A stretch of DNA of 32,466 bases from a virus, in IMG/VR virus record IMGVR_UViG_3300022074_000202, positions 1 through 32,466 of that record. One strand, 5' to 3'. Both the position numbers and the translations under genes were made by a program. Shown piece by piece: positions 4,422 through 26,536 of this stretch (position 1 is its first letter; each line of letters starts with the position of its first letter). The notes beneath the pieces were generated by a model that was not told the origin of the DNA, searched no databases, and saw only the letters and a program-made list of their open reading frames with translations.

Positions 4422-5998
4422 TAGACTTGTGGTGGTTGTTGTGCTTGTTGTTGCATGGCTTGCATCTCAGCTTGCTCACGCTTTTGTTCAACAGCAGCCA
4501 TCTGTGGCGCTTGTTGTTGTGCAGCCATAGCCTGCTGTTGTTGCATTGCTTGCTGTTGTTCACCTTGGATTTCGTCCATGCTCTTCACAAGGTTGAGCAC
4601 GTCGATACCAGATGCAGCTGCCAAACGTTTGACAACTTCTTCTGGATTAATAAACTGTTGAATAGCTTCTGGACCCATTGTCTGAGCAATAACTTGTAGG
4701 AATTGACCAAGACTTTCACGATCCTGACCACGACCAAGTGCATTGATACCAGCAACAATAGTTGGTTTAACAATACCACCTTTAGGTAAGCGTGGGATCT
4801 CTCCAGTTTTTTGTGCAACGTTTAGTTTACGATTTAGATATGGTACTAAGAACTCAACAGTAAGTAAACTAAATAGTCCACCAAGTTGTTGCTCTAGTTC
4901 CATCTGTGTCATCCTTACTTCTTCTGCTGTAGTCCTTTCAGACTGACGAACATTAAGAATAAGGAATGCTTCACTAAGACGTTGTGATAATGTACCTACC
5001 ATTTGATAGGCAGTCTGGAAGTCAGCTGTCTTTCCAACCTGTACTACACCAATGTCATCAGGTCGTCCCTGAATGATAGCACCGTTACCTGCCTTAGCAA
5101 GTGTCGATGGTTTGGTGGAGGAGCTTGGACTGACAGTGAATACAATCTTAGCAGCTGCTGCGCTGCCTTCAACCAGTGCTTGTGACAGAGCTTCAAGTGA
5201 CTTTAGGTCACCAAGGAACTCTTCTACCCTACCACGTCCGTAGACTTCGCCGTCTACGTGGTTGAAGCGTAGCACCAGCCAAGGGTTAGAGTCAAGAGGA
5301 GATTTACTCATTGACTTAGGAAGGATCTGATCGTCTACTTCCTGATGCCACATCCAGCGATTGTTATCTAAAACAACGTGTGTATAGATGTCACATTCAT
5401 CATCGTGACGTGTTGTATTGTCAGATGAATCATTGGGTTGTGGTTCTTTGTAATCTGGATTAAATTTTTTCAGTAATTTTTTCGAGATTGTTTCCTTTGT
5501 TACAATTTCAATAACATTACCGTTACCATCTCTGTCTACTACATATCGGTTTAAAGGATAGAGCTTAAGTCCATCCTTACCCATAAAGACAAGAGCATTA
5601 CCAGCTACTACAAGATGCTTTAGTGCTTGGTGAACGACAACACGATCACTGGAAGCCGCAATGGATTCCATGATAGTACGTTCGATCTTAGCAAACGACA
5701 AGTCTAGTTCAGATCTAATCTCTGGTCCTAGTTCTTCAGGTAAGTTAACATCATTAACCTGTAGCTTAAAGAAGCTAGTTTGTGGAGGTAACAATGCAAG
5801 CATTAGTTTACTTGCAAGAGTCACCACACCTTTAGCTCCCTGTGATTGCCACGGGGTTGTAAGTTTAACTGAACCTTTAGTATAAACCTCATCATCACGG
5901 ATGAGATAGGGAAGAGTTAGATCTGCTGCTTGTCTAGCAGTGTTTAGAAACTGTGAACGGTCTGAAGACAATCTGTCATAACGTGTTTTAGCTGTCAT
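4421..5998 (-). CDS. Portal (head-tail connector), T7 gp8-like
   Basis: A 525-residue protein starting MTAKTRYDRLSSDRSQFLN, with the conserved podovirus portal elements AADLTLPYLI, TPWQSQGAKGVVTLASKLML, LPPQTSFFKL, NHVDGEVYGRGRVEEFLGDL and NVRQSERTTAEEVRMTQMEL. It forms the dodecameric ring through which DNA enters the head. The last 60 residues are unusually Gln-rich (repeated QQQAMA), a low-complexity tail seen in some cyanophage portals. The stop overlaps the scaffold start. Confidence 0.95.
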   Translation of the reverse strand: MTAKTRYDRLSSDRSQFLNTARQAADLTLPYLIRDDEVYTKGSVKLTTPWQSQGAKGVVTLASKLMLALLPPQTSFFKLQVNDVNLPEELGPEIRSELDLSFAKIERTIMESIAASSDRVVVHQALKHLVVAGNALVFMGKDGLKLYPLNRYVVDRDGNGNVIEIVTKETISKKLLKKFNPDYKEPQPNDSSDNTTRHDDECDIYTHVVLDNNRWMWHQEVDDQILPKSMSKSPLDSNPWLVLRFNHVDGEVYGRGRVEEFLGDLKSLEALSQALVEGSAAAAKIVFTVSPSSSTKPSTLAKAGNGAIIQGRPDDIGVVQVGKTADFQTAYQMVGTLSQRLSEAFLILNVRQSERTTAEEVRMTQMELEQQLGGLFSLLTVEFLVPYLNRKLNVAQKTGEIPRLPKGGIVKPTIVAGINALGRGQDRESLGQFLQVIAQTMGPEAIQQFINPEEVVKRLAAASGIDVLNLVKSMDEIQGEQQQAMQQQQAMAAQQQAPQMAAVEQKREQAEMQAMQQQAQQPPQV

Positions 5999-15589: not shown

Positions 15590-17934
15590 TAACAGAAAAA
15601 ATAAGTGGATTCAATCACGGATTCTGGTTCCAGATCTCCGATGATCGGTGGGTCAGTCTCCGCTTCTATTTGAGTAGCGAAGTCTTGTAAGTAATCATGC
15701 TCTGCAAATAAATGCATGTATGTTGCTCGCACTACGGAACTAAGCAGCTCCATGTCTGTAGCACGACATAATACAGAGTCATGTATAAGAGCAATGGGTG
15801 CATAGAAAGCTAATGCACTTAAATGTAGCAACGAAGCGTCAAGTGAATGTATAAGATTAGGTGCTGTTGCGTTCTTGTGGTGTTGCTTATCTACCTTGTT
15901 ACTATCTTCAGTAGCAACAGTAAGTTTACAACGACCTAATAATTGTAGCTCAACTTGAATAGTCTTTGGTTTCATTAGACGTTGGTTAACAACAAAACCA
16001 GATGGTGTTACCCATTTTAGTTTTGTCTTACCTCTATCAATAGCTTTAGCTACTTCTTCCTCAATCCATGACATGACAGCCATAGGACCAGGTACAACCT
16101 CATCCATAGCATTTCTAACAGCGACAACAGTCTTTGTCAAGTCATCTTTCTCAATCTCAATACCTTTCTCTTTTAGTGCGTCCTTAATGTACCCACGGTT
16201 TGAGAACGGCTTTGCATTGTAAGGTACGGTCATCACTACTCTTTTGACTACCTTTCTATCCATATGATTACGAATAGAACTAGGGCAGAAAGGAGCAGCA
16301 GTATTAGCAACGACAGCATAAGCATCCTGTGGTTTATCAGAAGGGATAACATTTACTAAACTAGCAGTAGATTTATCTCTAGCTAATCCAGCTAATATTT
16401 GTAACCCACTACATGTAGCGTCAGTAGCAACTATGCCACCTGTTGTTGTCCTATCTTTAATTAAGACACAATGATAGTATTCATCACAAGCAGCTAAAAA
16501 CTGCCAAGGTTCAGCAACTTCATCCCATTCGTGAATGTGCCGGATTGGATCACATGCGACCATAGAAATAATATGGGTATTATTCTTTACCCATTTTAAT
16601 CTATCTTCAATAGTGTCTTTATCTAGACCATAAGTAGTAGCAACTTGGAAGGCTAACCATTTCTCAGCATACTTATTCATCGTTGCTTCTTTAGCAAATC
16701 GAAGTAGACTTTTTCCAAAGTCAGTATCTTGTGGTGTTAAGTGTGATGGAATTGGATATGCTCTTCCACGGTAGTCAAAGCTCCAAGGTAGATAAAATTT
16801 ATTCTTATCTTTAAACCTTGCTACTGCTTCCATTGTCATTCGAGTCCTACAAGATTTTCTAAACTCTTGAGCTTGTAAGTCATGGACTACTTTAGCTCTT
16901 CGTTTATAATCTTGTCTTGACTCTTTATTTGTATCAATATCTACCGGTTTAGGTGGTAGATCATGATGCATAATAGGGAGGAACTTACCGACAGCTCGTT
17001 CCATTCTATCTAGTTCTTCCGCTACCTTTACTGTGAAAGGGTTTAAACGGTAAGCCACCTTCTGAATCTTGTTTAAAAATTCAATTGGTGTTTCTCCCTG
17101 TATAGATGTGGGATCGCCCCTACGGACTAAATGGTGTCCAGCCATGATCTCATTTAGGAAGTAACCACCACATGACTCGTTGCTCCAATCTCTTGGAGGT
17201 ATAAGCATAGGCCATGCAACAGGACTAAATAGTTCAGCATTTTTCATAATTTCATCCTTTTTTTCCAGAAACTCTGGAGTAGGAATAATATGCTGGATTT
17301 TCTTGCGTCCTTGCTGATGAATGTGCCTGGTAAACCAACCACTAGTTTCCATAATGCAGTCTAGTAACCAACCACCAAGTTTAACACGGTTTTTACTGCC
17401 CCATGTCTGCCAAGGCGTAACATCATACCTGTTCATTAATGTTCTGATGTTTACTAGTTTCTGTTGTGTACCAGAAGAACTGTGCCAGTATCGTTCTTTT
17501 AGTTTATACAGTAAACCAGGTGCTGTCTTCTCATAGTGTCTCATCTGACACTCCTGTTCAACAGCTAAACCAATAGCCTCACAAACGCCTACAACCCCAT
17601 TGGATTTATCTTTGTGACTGAATACCCTATCAAAGCATACCTTGAGTGCTATAGCGGCAGCAGCAAGTGGCTCAACATCAACTAGATACTGTTGTATCTC
17701 CTTGAATGCTACACCTGTTTTGCCTTCCTTTATCCTGGCGTTAGTATCTTCAATACGTGCAACCAACAAAGGAAGCAGGGTATCAATAGAAGCAGTTCCG
17801 TAAACACTAGCAGACGCATAAGATTTGTTTTCTAAGTCCCGTGTGTTCTTATGTAGTTTTTTTAGACCATGTGCAATAGCATCACGTTCTAATTGAATCT
17901 GTTCGTCTAACTCTTGTTCAGTCGGAATCAACAA
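15589..17934 (-). CDS. DNA-directed RNA polymerase, single subunit, T7-like
   Basis: 781 residues, slightly shorter than T7 (883). Catalytic motifs: FDYRGRAYP at 387, ATDATCSGLQILAG with Asp505 (T7 Asp537), KRVVMTVPYNAK with Lys564 and Tyr572 (T7 Lys631, Tyr639), and ALIHDSV with His718-Asp719 (T7 His811-Asp812). The C-terminus YFFC corresponds to the FAFA foot. It transcribes middle and late genes from phage promoters. No ATG lies near the N-terminus: the frame opens with TTG at 17934, nine bases after an AGGAG, so initiation at TTG is likely. The stop overlaps the ssb start. Confidence 0.96.
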   Translation of the reverse strand: MLIPTEQELDEQIQLERDAIAHGLKKLHKNTRDLENKSYASASVYGTASIDTLLPLLVARIEDTNARIKEGKTGVAFKEIQQYLVDVEPLAAAAIALKVCFDRVFSHKDKSNGVVGVCEAIGLAVEQECQMRHYEKTAPGLLYKLKERYWHSSSGTQQKLVNIRTLMNRYDVTPWQTWGSKNRVKLGGWLLDCIMETSGWFTRHIHQQGRKKIQHIIPTPEFLEKKDEIMKNAELFSPVAWPMLIPPRDWSNESCGGYFLNEIMAGHHLVRRGDPTSIQGETPIEFLNKIQKVAYRLNPFTVKVAEELDRMERAVGKFLPIMHHDLPPKPVDIDTNKESRQDYKRRAKVVHDLQAQEFRKSCRTRMTMEAVARFKDKNKFYLPWSFDYRGRAYPIPSHLTPQDTDFGKSLLRFAKEATMNKYAEKWLAFQVATTYGLDKDTIEDRLKWVKNNTHIISMVACDPIRHIHEWDEVAEPWQFLAACDEYYHCVLIKDRTTTGGIVATDATCSGLQILAGLARDKSTASLVNVIPSDKPQDAYAVVANTAAPFCPSSIRNHMDRKVVKRVVMTVPYNAKPFSNRGYIKDALKEKGIEIEKDDLTKTVVAVRNAMDEVVPGPMAVMSWIEEEVAKAIDRGKTKLKWVTPSGFVVNQRLMKPKTIQVELQLLGRCKLTVATEDSNKVDKQHHKNATAPNLIHSLDASLLHLSALAFYAPIALIHDSVLCRATDMELLSSVVRATYMHLFAEHDYLQDFATQIEAETDPPIIGDLEPESVIESTYFFC
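17304..17316 (-). repeat. Repeat TGCGTCCTTGCTG, copy within the RNA polymerase gene
   Basis: Thirteen bases identical to the core of the other copies, then ATGAATGTG. Here it is read in a different frame (HQQGRK), so protein homology cannot explain it. Confidence 0.5.
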
Positions 17935-20504: not shown

Positions 20505-20675
20505 TTAATTGAGTGGTTGGTAGTACACATGTTCTACACTGTTACTTATTTCATGATGCTGAACACCATTAATCTTTGCTGGTTTGTTACGCTTAGCACG
20601 CTTCTGTACATCACACCATAACAGTGATTTGATTGGTTTACTTTGCAGCGTGTATGTGACTTCTTTTAATCTCAT
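20505..20675 (-). CDS. Basic early protein, 56 aa
   Basis: Encodes MRLKEVTYTLQSKPIKSLLW and continues CDVQKRAKRNKPAKINGVQ, ending YYQPLN. The start overlaps the previous stop by TAATG. A basic patch (KRAKRNK) lies in the middle. It is the second gene of the early block, and no family is recognised. The VTYT codons contain the GCGTGTATGTG word also seen at 17962 and 19911. Confidence 0.6.
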   Translation of the reverse strand: MRLKEVTYTLQSKPIKSLLWCDVQKRAKRNKPAKINGVQHHEISNSVEHVYYQPLN

Positions 20676-20995
20676 TACTTGAACACATATCCAGATTCAA
20701 ACTCAACAACCTCGTTGTTATCTTTAACGAACCATTGATAGTCTTTCTGAAATACTCCATCAGTTAATGCATCACAGAACTCATTGATGATAACATTGAG
20801 ACGAGATTTAGTCGTGGCAGTTCTCCAACCACCATCAAATACTGTTACAAAGGTATCAGTCACAGTTGCAATATGATTACCATGTAGATACACAAGCGAG
20901 GCATTGTTGTCGTTAGTATACACCTCAGTGTTTGCCTTACGCCAACACTTACCCAGTCTAATTGCACTGAGCATGTCTCTCTCAATCTGTCGCAT
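20675..20995 (-). CDS. First early protein, 106 aa, conserved phage hypothetical
   Basis: The start MRQIERDMLSAIRLGKCWRK at ATG 20995 has GGAGAGACA upstream and lies about 20 bases after promoter 1; the longer frame back to 21079 includes the promoter and is rejected. Further features are VYLHGNHIA, FDGGWRTATTKSRLNVIINE and FQKDYQWFV. This GGW-R-T-x-TTKSRLN pattern recurs in small proteins of many marine and other podoviruses, of unknown role. It is the first gene of the chromosome, the slot T7 uses for host take-over proteins. Confidence 0.75.
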   Translation of the reverse strand: MRQIERDMLSAIRLGKCWRKANTEVYTNDNNASLVYLHGNHIATVTDTFVTVFDGGWRTATTKSRLNVIINEFCDALTDGVFQKDYQWFVKDNNEVVEFESGYVFK

Positions 20996-21019: not shown

Positions 21020-21048
21020 AGTATGGCACAGCTCAGCGCATAAGTCAA
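21020..21048 (-). promoter_or_regulatory. Early host-type promoter 1
   Basis: TTGACT, 17 bases, TGC-CATACT followed by ATATGC. It is the first promoter after the gene-free junction and drives the 106-aa gene. It shares TTGACTT, the spacing and TGCCATACTAT with promoter 2, but its spacer sequence is different. Confidence 0.8.
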
Positions 21049-21458
21049 CACGTCGTGTGCACTTCGTTAACTGGCGCAACAGATGTTGTGCAATATTTAC
21101 ACGGATACGTGTACCTAATTAAATATTATTTAGCAGAGGTAATCGCTCGCGCTACGCGCTCGCTATGTGCGCGAAATATTATCACATAGTGAGCATGATT
21201 GCGGAAGCGAGCGTAGCGAGCGGCAACGATCAGTATATTTTATACCCCTATGGGGGTAATATTTGCAATACTTATATGATATATGGGTTCACAAATTTAT
21301 GTCATTTTTTAAGGAGCCTTTGCTCGTTAGCGTAAGGTTCCGACATGACAAAAGATGTATAATCAGTAAAATACTGTGGAAAGTAGGACCAAACGGGAAG
21401 ACACTGTTTAATATTATGATAATTGGAGGTACACATAGTAATAAACAGTGCTAAACAG
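21049..21458. other. Gene-free genome-end junction rich in inverted repeats
   Basis: The longest stretch without a convincing gene, between the last late gene (thyX) and the first early promoter. It holds inverted repeats at 21074-21091, 21098-21113 (TACACG/CGTGTA, perfect), 21158-21194 (GCTCGCTATGTG against CACATAGTGAGC, one mismatch, 13-base loop), 21245-21257 (ACCCC/GGGGT) and 21313-21341. A GC-rich patch at 21144-21223 has AGCGAGCGTAGCGAGCG-type repeats in an otherwise AT-rich block. T7-like genomes carry direct terminal repeats exactly here, so a collapsed repeat with concatemer-processing signals is inferred. Confidence 0.6.
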
Positions 21459-22109
21459 TTAATTGCTTGTTGAATTGAGACTATCATTAAACATTGCGGT
21501 ATAAACGATAGGGAATTGCTGTTGGATGAGTGTTTTAACGTTATCTGCTATAAGTTTGTGTTCATATTGGGTACCATTAGCACATCTAAGGTCAGTATAG
21601 TGTAACCATGAGCGAAGAGTACCGTTCATATAGAGTTTAGTGGGTGTTGAGAGGGGGAGAATGTCTCTTGCACACTCTTTAGCAACACCATGATCTAACA
21701 TATCAGTATATAAGTCTAAAGATTTCTTATATAACTCTTGAGTACGGACTTCAAACTGTTGTTGAAGGAAGGGATCAAGATCATCAATACTATTCTGTCT
21801 ATTCTTAGTATCTTGTCTGCGAAGGTTAGGCAGTTGGGGAGTATTAACGACTTGAGCGTAGCGTTGGGAGAACTCTTGAAAGGAGAAGGAACGGTGACGT
21901 AATATTTGACTAGCAACACTTCGGGTTGTGTCAATCTGTACACACATATTAACCATTTCAAAGGGGGACCAATGCTTATGTTTAATTAGATATTTAATAA
22001 GACCTGTATAGTTATCATTATCTTGATTAGCAGGGTTAGATACTCTAGCCATATAAGCTATTAATGATTCAGCATCGGGTGTTACGTGAACGAGTTCTAC
22101 GTTATGCAT
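21459..22109 (-). CDS. thyX: Flavin-dependent thymidylate synthase
   Basis: 216 residues with the ThyX signature RHRSFSFQEFSQRY (residues 71-84; RHRxxSxxExSxRY). It makes dTMP from dUMP using FAD, NADPH and methylene-tetrahydrofolate, complementing the RNR. Other family elements are HWSPFEMV and LRSWLHYTDLRCANGTQYE. It is the last gene before the chromosome end, apart from the other nucleotide genes. No ribosome binding site is seen; a TATACT hexamer lies six bases before the ATG, so a near-leaderless transcript is possible but the -35 is weak. Confidence 0.95.
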   Translation of the reverse strand: MHNVELVHVTPDAESLIAYMARVSNPANQDNDNYTGLIKYLIKHKHWSPFEMVNMCVQIDTTRSVASQILRHRSFSFQEFSQRYAQVVNTPQLPNLRRQDTKNRQNSIDDLDPFLQQQFEVRTQELYKKSLDLYTDMLDHGVAKECARDILPLSTPTKLYMNGTLRSWLHYTDLRCANGTQYEHKLIADNVKTLIQQQFPIVYTAMFNDSLNSTSN

Positions 22110-22188: not shown

Positions 22189-22226
22189 AAAGGAGGAATG
22201 AGAGCTTGTCTCGAATTCCTCCCTTT
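22189..22226 (-). terminator. Strong hairpin terminator after large terminase
   Basis: AAAGGAGGAAT pairs with ATTCCTCCCTTT (one bulged base), extended inward by GAGA/TCTC around a GCTTG loop. On the coding strand it is followed by TTTAATACT. The T-run is short, but the stem is the strongest in the window and stands after the last structural and packaging gene. Confidence 0.6.
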
Positions 22227-22227
22227 G

Positions 22228-22310
22228 AGCAGTCGGGTCCACCCTTCCCTTCTGCCTATAGATGTGGGACCGTTCTAAACCCAGTGGTTGCAACGCATCT
22301 TGCGATGCTA
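22228..22310 (-). ncRNA. Candidate structured RNA between terminase stop and terminator
   Basis: Right after the terminase stop, the coding strand forms GCATC-GCAA-GATGC, a stem closed by a GNRA tetraloop. A GTTGCAAC palindrome follows, then a GGTCC(C)AC/GTGGACC stem with a 21-base loop, and the terminator. No start codon with a ribosome site is seen. It could be a small RNA, a processing signal or part of the packaging region. Confidence 0.35.
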
Positions 22311-24035
22311 CTACACCCAGGTAGGGACTGAGTTTTTAGGATTAGAGTTAGCTTGTTGTCTTTGTGTTAAATTCATACCCAATACTAAGTGATTAGCAGA
22401 GGATTGAGGGTCGTCAAAGAACTCTTCTAACATAGCATTCCATTCTGTACGTTTACGATCTTTAATAGCTTCTAGGGCAGAGATACCCATAGCATCTGTA
22501 AAGTATTTAATACCTTGAGATAGAGCGTCTATACGATCATCATGTCTAATTGCACCTTTTTCACGACACATCCTAGACATTTGATAGAATAGCATGTATA
22601 GAAGTCGTTCTTCTGGGGGAGCATCAGGATTAGACTTAAAGTCTTTTTCAACTACGGAACGGTCAATAACGAGTCGATGTTGATTGAGGATGGGTTCGAG
22701 GGAATCAATGATTCGATCTTCTTTTCTAACATTTGCTCTGACTTCTTCAATATCAATTCCTTGTTTGGTTTGTTGGAGGTGTTTACGGAACAACTCGCTA
22801 ACAATACCGTCACCAAAATTAGTTTCAATGAGTAGTTTAGATACGCCATACTTTTTACAACCTTTTAAAATATCAAGTAATGTTTGGTCTGAGTATCCGT
22901 CTCTGTAAGCACGCATGTCGTGCAAGTACAGGAAACCGTTTCGTTGTGAGATAAAAGCTGCAGCTGTTTCATCCGTTCCACGGCCCGACGGGTCAACCGA
23001 ACATATTGTTTCTTGGTAAGAATCCCATTCTCCTTGTAGCTGCATTGGAGAGTAGAAATAATCCCCAGGTAATCCAACCGTTGGGAGGTCTTTGATAACG
23101 TTTTGGGGATCGGAGCACCATACGATGGATTCAGGTGCAGTAGTGGGGTTAACAGAAGTGACAATAAGATCAGCACATTTAAGTGGGAATTTTTCTGCAT
23201 CAGATAAAGAAGTGTCTAACATGAACTGCAACATAAAGTTGCTACGACCCATTGACGCTTCACGCTCTACCAGGTCATCATTATCAAATCTATCATCTGT
23301 TACTTCCCATTTCTTAGCACCTTTATCAATGTCTTCAACAAGTTGTGGTGCTAACAAGCCTTCGTATTGACCAACTTTACGAGGGTATCTAGCAGGCCAA
23401 ACGAATGGTTTATAAGCTCGTTCTGCTAGTTTACGATATACAGTAAAGGTAGTCTGTGGTGTTCCGAGGAACATAATACGACTATCAGGTTTAGGAGTAA
23501 GAATAGATTCAGCTTCAGTACATAACTGTAGAAGTTTCTCCCTCATAAATTCCGTCATGCTATTGCCGGGAACCTCTATGTCATCGAGAATCATTAAGTC
23601 AGCGCGAGAACCTGTCAGTTGGCCTGTAATCCCAACAGACTTGACGGAAGGTGCTTGGTGGGGGGAACAAGAAACGTCGAAGCTTATTCGCGACCATCTT
23701 GAGTCGTCGCCTTTGGGTTGTAAATGCTTTAACCATGGTGTTTCAATAATTAACTTTTGTAGAAAGATAGACATGTTATCTGCACGTTCTTTAGATGCAG
23801 AGATAATCATTATCTTTTTTTCGGGGTTATTAAAGAGAGTCCACAGAACAAAAGCACCAGTAATCCAGCTCTTACCAACTCCCCGAAATGCTTGGATCTG
23901 TAAACGCTTTGGACCATGTTGAAGGTAATCAGCAATTGCATATTGGGCACGTGTAGGATTTGGTAGGTCGAGTTCATTCCATAAAGCCTGTAAGAATAGC
24001 TTAAAGTCATCTTTTAATAGATCTAATGTATTCAT
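22311..24035 (-). CDS. Terminase large subunit, T7 gp19-like
   Basis: 574 residues with Walker A QAFRGVGKSW near 50-58, Walker B LMILDDIEVPG near 150, and a nuclease region SVDPSGRGTDETAAAF followed by LLIETNFGDGIVSELFRKHL. It pumps DNA into the procapsid and cuts the concatemer. Of two adjacent ATGs, the one at 24035 has GGAG at better spacing than 24038. It overlaps the sulfotransferase-like gene by about 30 bases. Confidence 0.95.
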   Translation of the reverse strand: MNTLDLLKDDFKLFLQALWNELDLPNPTRAQYAIADYLQHGPKRLQIQAFRGVGKSWITGAFVLWTLFNNPEKKIMIISASKERADNMSIFLQKLIIETPWLKHLQPKGDDSRWSRISFDVSCSPHQAPSVKSVGITGQLTGSRADLMILDDIEVPGNSMTEFMREKLLQLCTEAESILTPKPDSRIMFLGTPQTTFTVYRKLAERAYKPFVWPARYPRKVGQYEGLLAPQLVEDIDKGAKKWEVTDDRFDNDDLVEREASMGRSNFMLQFMLDTSLSDAEKFPLKCADLIVTSVNPTTAPESIVWCSDPQNVIKDLPTVGLPGDYFYSPMQLQGEWDSYQETICSVDPSGRGTDETAAAFISQRNGFLYLHDMRAYRDGYSDQTLLDILKGCKKYGVSKLLIETNFGDGIVSELFRKHLQQTKQGIDIEEVRANVRKEDRIIDSLEPILNQHRLVIDRSVVEKDFKSNPDAPPEERLLYMLFYQMSRMCREKGAIRHDDRIDALSQGIKYFTDAMGISALEAIKDRKRTEWNAMLEEFFDDPQSSANHLVLGMNLTQRQQANSNPKNSVPTWV

Positions 24036-24513
24036 CATTTCTCCAAGTTTCAGGACCGTGTGGTGTGTTAGGTAAGTGTTGTTTTACTGTAAAGTTAGAT
24101 CTATCTTTAACAAACAAAGGATCGTTTACAAGTGATTCATATTGGATATCAAACCATCTGTCTTTATGTAAATATTGTTTTGCTAAGTTAATTAAATCAT
24201 AACAGTTATCAATATATTTACTGTAGAAAGATGGTTCATCTACATAATCTTTATACCACTCAATACGTTCCATACTTTTAATAATATCTGCTTTATTTCT
24301 ATACATGAAAGCAAACTGAGCAGTAGGAAACATAAAAGATACTTCTAGTAAAGCTTTTAAAAGAAAAGGAGCTTGTACTACAGAGTTATTAGGAATGTCT
24401 GGTGAGTAATCTAGTTCATCAATAAACGTTCGTTTAGTTTGACGTGAGATGATGTATGAAGCAAGCCGTGAGCCTGCTCTCTGTGGGCCTGTAACGATGA
24501 TAGGGTGGGTCAT
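24007..24513 (-). CDS. Sulfotransferase-like P-loop protein, 168 aa
   Basis: The N-terminus IIVTGPQRAGSRLASYIIS is a PAPS-binding-type P-loop of sulfotransferases, and FMYRNKADIIKSM fits the 3'-phosphate loop (Arg ... Ser). Later elements are WFDIQYESLVNDP and the C-terminal HGPETWRNDEY. The protein is short for a full sulfotransferase (about 250-300 aa), and the substrate cannot be guessed; sugar or protein modification of virion or host surface is possible. It precedes the terminase. Similar P-loop proteins occur in other marine phages. Confidence 0.55.
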   Translation of the reverse strand: MTHPIIVTGPQRAGSRLASYIISRQTKRTFIDELDYSPDIPNNSVVQAPFLLKALLEVSFMFPTAQFAFMYRNKADIIKSMERIEWYKDYVDEPSFYSKYIDNCYDLINLAKQYLHKDRWFDIQYESLVNDPLFVKDRSNFTVKQHLPNTPHGPETWRNDEYIRSIKR

Positions 24514-26071: not shown

Positions 26072-26304
26072 GCTCGGCCTTTACGTGCTCGGTTTTTAGA
26101 TGCTTTTTCAAGAAATGTTTTACCATTTTTCTTGTGTGATACATCTTTACCGTCACCATTGCCATAAGTACCGCGTCGTCGGTTCTCTTTATTTAAAGCA
26201 GACCGCTTTGAGATTTGTAGTTTGGAACCATCATACTTTTTTTGGTATGATTTATAGTTACCATTAGCGAATTTAGCACCGCTATGTTTAGAGCTTCGAG
26301 CCAT
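26068..26304 (-). CDS. Basic conserved cyanophage protein, 78 aa
   Basis: Starts MARSSKHSGAKFANGNYKSY and has QKKYDGSKLQISKRSALNKE, then GTYGNGDGKDVSHKKNGK and a basic end. I recognise the NKENRRRGTYGNGDGKDxSH pattern as common in cyanophages beside HNH or terminase genes. Function unknown; nucleic-acid binding is suggested by the charge only. It overlaps the small terminase by 17 bases. Confidence 0.75.
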   Translation of the reverse strand: MARSSKHSGAKFANGNYKSYQKKYDGSKLQISKRSALNKENRRRGTYGNGDGKDVSHKKNGKTFLEKASKNRARKGRA

Positions 26305-26536
26305 ATAGCCTCCGTTGGACTAGTTCTGGGTCAACAGTTGGCATAATGTTAGCCAATTTATCAAGTGAGTTACCATCAAAGGCGACACCACTAATGTCAT
26401 TCTTTGATAACCAATCACAAGCTGCTTTTAAATCTTGTGTAGTTGCCTCACCAGATTTAACACGGTTTAGAAACTCAGTAGTAACTAGATTGTGTAGCTC
26501 ATTAAATTGTTCTTCACTCGCTTTGTTTTTTGACAT
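26288..26536 (-). CDS. Terminase small subunit, T7 gp18-like
   Basis: 82 residues: an N-terminal helix (SEEQFNELHNLVTTEFLNRV), a SGEATTQDLKAACDWLSKND helix-turn region and a C-terminal tail ending YGSKL. Length, helical character and place before the large terminase fit the T7 gp18 family (DNA packaging protein). It would recognise the concatemer and hand DNA to the large subunit. Several small genes (HNH, GHH and sulfotransferase-like) separate it from the large terminase, a looser arrangement than in T7. Confidence 0.72.
   Translation of the reverse strand: MSKNKASEEQFNELHNLVTTEFLNRVKSGEATTQDLKAACDWLSKNDISGVAFDGNSLDKLANIMPTVDPELVQRRLYGSKL

Follow-up and report, generated by a model that had tools for sequence, protein, structure and literature searches.

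The fragment considered here raises the question of what is held in the non-coding block of ~460 nt that extends from the stop of thyX (21459) to the first early ATG (20995), and whether the two ends of a phage genome are joined within it. The window is the whole of the 32,466-base virus record IMGVR_UViG_3300022074_000202, and all coordinates given below are positions in that record. Our reading, to which we assign a probability of about 0.93 from the sequence, is that the block represents the joined genome ends (a concatemer junction) of a T7-like cyanophage and carries a single copy of a direct terminal repeat of ~197 bp. Elements of this kind are already known, and what is added here is a base-level prediction of both ends.

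The main genes are all on the minus strand of the window and run, in that sense, from tail-fibre-like genes through the small terminase, the large terminase and thyX to the non-coding junction, followed by small early genes, RNA polymerase, replication genes, ribonucleotide reductase, portal, psbA and capsid; some of these names were assigned by eye from translations and syntenic records. The window begins within the capsid gene and holds a partial genome. Since part of the structural region is absent, it is a fragment, with the two genome ends joined mid-window. The nearest annotated record is that of Synechococcus phage S-RIP1 (Kajamvirus). The features that frame the junction are the following:

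26288-26536, minus strand: small terminase, T7 gp18-like (PF11123, E 1e-16)
22311-24038, minus strand: large terminase of the T7 type (PF22530, T7 terminase, E 9e-36)
21459-22109, minus strand: thyX, the last late gene (PF02511, E 3e-47)
21020-21048, minus strand: first early host-type promoter, TTGACT-N17-CATACT, by sequence match
20675-20995, minus strand: first early gene, Kyano_Gp96 family (PF23790)
20484-20456 and 20279-20251, minus strand: two more copies of TTGACT-N17-CATACT, before small early ORFs

The window encodes the single-subunit RNA polymerase, endonuclease I and primase-helicase of a T7-like cyanophage (Autographiviridae) in T7 gene order, and its RNA polymerase, endonuclease I and both terminase subunits are of the T7 type. 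The original prediction that late genes abut early promoters here is borne out, with the PF22530 terminase and thyX upstream of three TTGACT-N17-CATACT promoters on the minus strand; the block thus has the last late gene on one side and the early promoters on the other, in a phage with a T7-type terminase (PF22530 and PF11123), as a terminal repeat of this group does. A second non-coding gap, of 201 nt, separates the terminase gene from thyX. The PF23790 family takes its name from T4-like cyanophages, and relatives of the first early gene are also found in contigs of >170 kb. No tRNA genes were found in the window, and its sole Rfam match is a Glutamine-II riboswitch (RF01704, 52 bits) at 1082-1134 on the minus strand, outside the block, directly downstream of psbA and before the capsid gene.

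Terminal repeats computed from the phage records that carry them measure 160 bp in T7, 231 bp in T3, 174 bp in SP6, 206 bp in P-SSP7, 237 bp in Syn5 and 180 bp in S-SBP1. The sequence that comes right after the repeat is ATCTGTT in T7, T3 and Syn5, ATCTGTC in S-SBP1 and ACCTGTT in P-SSP7, and the SP6 repeat is one base off, its final base being the A of ATCTGTT. For T7 RNA polymerase this heptamer is the class II termination motif, and the concatemer junction is among its sites (PMC11617373). At the other end, 8 nt lie between the TG of a CANAA..[CG]TG box and the left cut in T7 (ATCTGAGTGACTA), T3 (ATCTGAATGGGTA), P-SSP7 (GTCTGAGGTCATA), Syn5 (TTGTGAAGGGGTA) and S-SBP1 (TGTGTGAACCCATA), each of these sequences ending at the cut; the left flank of SP6 differs, so that the box rule fits five phages and not SP6. 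A C-run begins 25-26 bases inside the repeat in the same five phages, e.g., CCCCCATAGGGGG at position 26 in T7 and CCCCCGTAGGGGG at 27 in P-SSP7. The end signature can accordingly be written as box, N8, cut, ~25 nt, C-run, and then a cut before ATCTGT. S-SBP1 was checked after this rule had been framed and fits it. The signature was not found in Pf-WMP4 or HTVC011P, taken as end controls; the former belongs to another family, and the record of the latter is without a terminal repeat by eye.

Within the window, the counterparts of these elements are as follows:

21282-21301, minus strand: left-end box CATAAATTTGTGAACCCATA, directly preceding the predicted left cut
21085-21281, minus strand: predicted direct terminal repeat of 197 bp, delimited by the left and right end signatures
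21245-21256, minus strand: C-run CCCCCATAGGGG, beginning at position 26 of the predicted repeat, where T7 has the same word
21078-21084, minus strand: ATCTGTT, the class II T7 RNA polymerase pause/termination motif, by sequence

The predicted left end reads TTTGTGAACCCATA up to the cut and TATCAT beyond it. A strict left-end pattern (box, spacing and C-run) has one match in the window, at 21301 on the correct strand, 217 nt before the sole minus-strand copy of ATCTGTT, which starts at 21084 and directly before which the predicted repeat ends. In the sequence searched from S-SBP1, P-SSP7, T7 and T3 the strict pattern matches only the true left ends; it misses Syn5 and WH11-B, which differ slightly. 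A looser pattern gave a few off-target matches, and for this reason the strict one was used for the claim of uniqueness. The predicted repeat is present once in the window because assembly merges both ends.

The closest correspondence is with S-SBP1 (MT424636, 180-bp repeat), in which GTGAACCCATA followed by TAT is identical across the left end (13 shared bases up to TA), ATCTGT stands at the right end and thyX lies upstream, and which differs from the window in being without its GC-rich arms (described below). P-SSP7, whose 206-bp direct terminal repeat was mapped experimentally although its genome assembled as a circle (Sabehi and Lindell 2012, PMC3350473), shares with the window a box ending in CTGAGGTCATA at the cut, CCCCCGTAGGGGG inside the repeat, a right end before ACCTGTT, the placement of the repeat downstream of the last late gene and ahead of the early genes, and a phage promoter-like repeat with a hairpin (H1, below) after the terminase. 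It differs in the length of its repeat (206 bp as against a predicted 197 bp), in its last late gene, which is talC rather than thyX, in having experimentally mapped ends, and in that none of the GC-rich arms of the window's clade were seen. The T7 and T3 junctions resemble that of the window in their box, their C-run at ~26, the ATCTGTT after the repeat, an upstream right-end phage promoter (annotated in T7) and downstream A1-like early promoters, and differ in lacking thyX and the GC-rich arms. In Syn5 the 237-bp repeat ends before ATCTGTT and a hairpin comes directly after the promoter; its promoter sequence and H1 loop are different, and it lacks the GGGG partner of the C-run. The comparison with other cyanopodovirus termini proposed in the original prediction therefore comes out in its favour for P-SSP7, Syn5 and S-SBP1, and the broader claim that genome ends with a terminal repeat and cleavage signals lie here agrees with the termini of T7 and T3 as well, and in part with that of SP6. 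For S-RIP1, which grows in Synechococcus WH8101, the same rule predicts one cut directly behind GTGAGCCCTA and the other ahead of ATCTGTTTG.

Loci related to the junction were gathered from metagenomic sequences on four criteria, namely the thyX protein, the GC-rich arm, the right-end word and the left box. In ~45 distinct metagenomic repeats the C-run is at position 25 or 26 in all, the spacing from box to hairpin is constant within one base, and ATCTGT comes next at the other end, usually after C; the left cut has a one-base ambiguity in other clades. Nearly all of the loci picked on the box alone show a C-run at +33, counted from the box, and a downstream ATCTGT, including clades that lack the GC-rich arms. 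Among those picked on the right-end word alone, the full set is present in 26 of 61; of the remainder, many seem to be unrelated contigs that matched the 16-mer by chance, and others are truncated or deviating. Of the ten to a dozen or so contigs that end in this stretch, three (L003, L029 and L145) stop exactly at ..AAAAC, the predicted right end, past which relatives continue with ATCTGT, and another (L137) stops two bases beyond. The ATCTGT expected next is carried by L148, a relative of L145, whereas L029 is without a close homologue to confirm it. Contigs that halt at the predicted right end lend indirect support to a physical end there. In some clades (L109 and L123) a single predicted repeat carries the palindrome GAGAATNNTTCTC close to its left end and again close to its right end. 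The support for genome ends thus consists of sequence correspondence, spacing, conservation and contig ends, from which the cuts themselves are predicted.

If the ends are as predicted, replication would yield head-to-tail concatemers in which one repeat is shared at each junction. On the T7 model, the RNA polymerase of the phage would start at a right-end promoter (putatively 22269-22257), transcribe across the junction and pause at ATCTGTT (21084-21078); pausing at this motif aids packaging in T7. Terminase may then cut just before ATCTGTT, giving the mature right end, and the left end would be formed at the box, between GTGAACCCATA and TATCAT, once the repeat has been duplicated.

The block also contains several inverted repeats, on which the original prediction placed its emphasis:

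21098-21113, unstranded: TACACG-GATA-CGTGTA palindrome, close to the right end of the repeat
21158-21169/21183-21194, unstranded: nested inverted repeat, 11/12, with a 13-nt loop
21157-21172/21207-21222: GC-rich inverted pair
21206-21223, minus strand: first arm of the GC-rich inverted repeat, the patch singled out earlier, reading AGCGAGCGTAGCGAGCGG on the plus strand
21144-21164, minus strand: second arm, AGCGAGCGCGTAGCGCGAGCG, which has an exact 18-mer in other viral stretches
21402-21418/21434-21450, unstranded: 15/17 inverted repeat with a 15-nt loop, just after thyX (folding of the thyX-side region, z -2.6)

The repeats that had been named (TACACG/CGTGTA, the 11/12 match with its 13-nt loop and the GC-rich pair) do exist, and the predicted terminal repeat as a whole folds better than its shuffles (DNA MFE -33 vs -22 +/- 3.1, z -3.5, reached by 0 of 200). 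They can hardly be called dense, as had been proposed: the block has 6 perfect inverted repeats (arm at least 6, loop 3-20) against a shuffle mean of 2.5, and at least 6 are found in 49 of 500 shuffles and as many in 14 of the 157 tiles of the window. Short ACACG-type palindromes are found near the right ends of Syn5 and P-SSP7 as well. The GC-rich arms hold their position within the repeat in dozens of contigs, where they enclose variable inner hairpins, and the exact 18-mer of the second arm, the arm on which this set of loci was chosen, occurs in 69 viral stretches, most of them with a downstream ATCTGT. A scan of the genomes of 85k species found the arm in no cyanobacterial genome and gave 20 scattered non-cyanobacterial matches. 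Several clades with both end signatures intact lack the arms altogether. Being constant in place, absent from the cyanobacterial genomes searched and missing in clades with intact end signatures, the arms are accessory to end definition, and we rejected them both as a universal element and as a host repeat. Thus the emphasis on inverted repeats was justified insofar as the repeats are real and the whole repeat folds above chance, but the correspondences among these sequences indicate that the ends are defined by the box, the C-run and ATCTGT, with the GC-rich arms as clade-specific accessories. The arms may act as a cruciform, hairpin intermediate or terminator, roles that, like those of the palindromes, are conjectural; the 15/17 repeat may mark either the end of the thyX transcript or a T7-like palindrome to the left of the repeat.

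Other explanations of the block deserve to be weighed against that of fixed ends. The genome could be circularly permuted by headful packaging, the block being merely a pac-like start region with early promoters. That the contig crosses the junction unbroken is what such a genome would give, and the GenBank annotation of a relative, 7B11-B (PV261922.1), is circularly permuted; most of the related contigs also pass through the junction, which is expected of merged repeats and of a permuted genome alike. We nevertheless consider permutation very improbable, because both fixed-end signatures are present once and at exact spacing, the terminase is of the T7 type, contigs stop at the predicted end, and P-SSP7, likewise assembled as a circle, has its 206-bp repeat (PMC3350473). 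As a separate observation, WH11-B (PV261923.1), a near relative of 7B11-B, has box- and ATCTGT-like sequences of the T7 type, and the ends of 7B11-B deserve to be rechecked.

A slightly more remote prospect still is that the conserved inverted repeats serve chiefly as terminators separating late from early transcription, their likeness to phage ends being incidental. The 15/17 repeat does come directly after thyX, and CCCCCATAGGGG and the GC-rich arms could form RNA hairpins, but a simple scan gave no terminator-like site in the block, the box, C-run and ATCTGT stand where ends have been mapped, and some clades retain the end signature but lack the GC-rich arms. The inverted repeats may also have terminator activity. 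A further proposal bears on the arms only and leaves the identity of the ends untouched: they might be a mobile or host-derived repeat inserted by chance in the terminal repeat, as similar AGCGAGCG words after thyX in L003 and L005 could suggest. This is unlikely, if less so than the two preceding explanations, given that the 85k-species scan found the arm in no cyanobacterial genome and that it stays in place inside the repeat in dozens of contigs. Fixed ends with a direct terminal repeat remain the preferred reading, favoured by the single occurrence of each end signature in the window, by the dozens of related contigs and by those that stop at the right end.

The region between the terminase gene and the predicted repeat contains further elements, which can be listed with their second copy elsewhere:

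22257-22269, minus strand: putative phage RNA polymerase promoter TCCCACATCTATA, a counterpart of phiOR, from its exact second copy and the Syn5 position
17101-17113, minus strand: second copy of the putative promoter, a 13-nt exact repeat inside the RNA polymerase gene (+821)
22228-22256, minus strand: hairpin H1, loop AAGGGTGGA, at the predicted transcription start, from covariation and a model match
22189-22225, minus strand: hairpin H2 and a short T-run, terminator-like, which folds in the window, Syn5 and many relatives

The length of the 13-nt repeat alone is not rare, since 21 of 362 random windows reach 13. Syn5 has two verified RNA polymerase promoters (PMC3950665), one at position 4929 of its record, within the RNA polymerase gene, and the other at 44797, immediately beyond the terminase. 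Repeats of 16-21 nt are found in P-SSP7, S-SBP1, S-CBP1 and S-CBP4 at +808 to +815 of the RNA polymerase gene and again after the terminase, and WH11-B has a shorter, similar pair that is weak and was recognized by eye. In each cyanopodovirus checked, these two sites are occupied by a word particular to that phage (weakly so in WH11-B), and it is this common position that makes a promoter likely in the window: by analogy, the pair would be a putative promoter for the phage RNA polymerase, and the copy ~1 kb before the terminal repeat would be the counterpart of phiOR. The window has no close match to the Syn5 promoter sequence. Another word, TTTGTGAACCC, was tried as a genome-wide promoter and rejected, as it has one exact copy only and the rest are at chance level.

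H1 and H2 lie after the terminase gene, directly after the putative promoter and ~1 kb upstream of the terminal repeat. In 43 distinct sequences of H1, 92.7% of cells pair and 74 cells have two-sided changes, compared with 16 in shuffles; the covariation score is 0.682 as against 0.27 in shuffles (0 of 500 reach it) and no more than 0.36 when slid. The frequency of G-U pairs favours RNA. The invariance of the loop AAGGGTGGA is biased by its having belonged to the search word, and 28 of the 38 thyX-chosen loci with a terminase carry it. A model built from the H1 set finds further members, namely L006, L033 and L034, with a changed loop, as well as L012 and L013; it has one match in the window (E 2e-8), at most one in each near-complete cyanopodovirus genome searched, and none in the end stretches of T7 and T3 that were searched. 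Rfam gave no match above the gathering score at 22189-22256, and the open-access literature on cyanophage small RNAs and on promoters beside the terminase yielded nothing relevant, although absence from the literature is not thereby proven. H1 is apparently a strongly conserved and undescribed hairpin of cyanopodoviruses, and a more novel observation than the terminal repeat. H1-H2 is a candidate small RNA, leader or terminator, and we put forward as a tentative and rather doubtful proposition that marine T7-like cyanophages make a structured RNA of ~70 nt (H1 plus H2) from the right-end promoter that acts in packaging or late regulation. If this were true, H1-H2 would represent a phage RNA for which no family has been described.

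Assembly usually loses the ends of T7-like phages. As the signature described here holds for five isolates in which both ends are readable and for ~45 distinct uncultured junctions, the two ends of many marine T7-like genomes could be located with it; this would need no new sequencing, and records that are annotated as permuted could be tested in the same way. The putative promoter, with a strongly covarying hairpin at its start, suggests that abundant marine phages may make a packaging or leader RNA, a possibility that is now testable.
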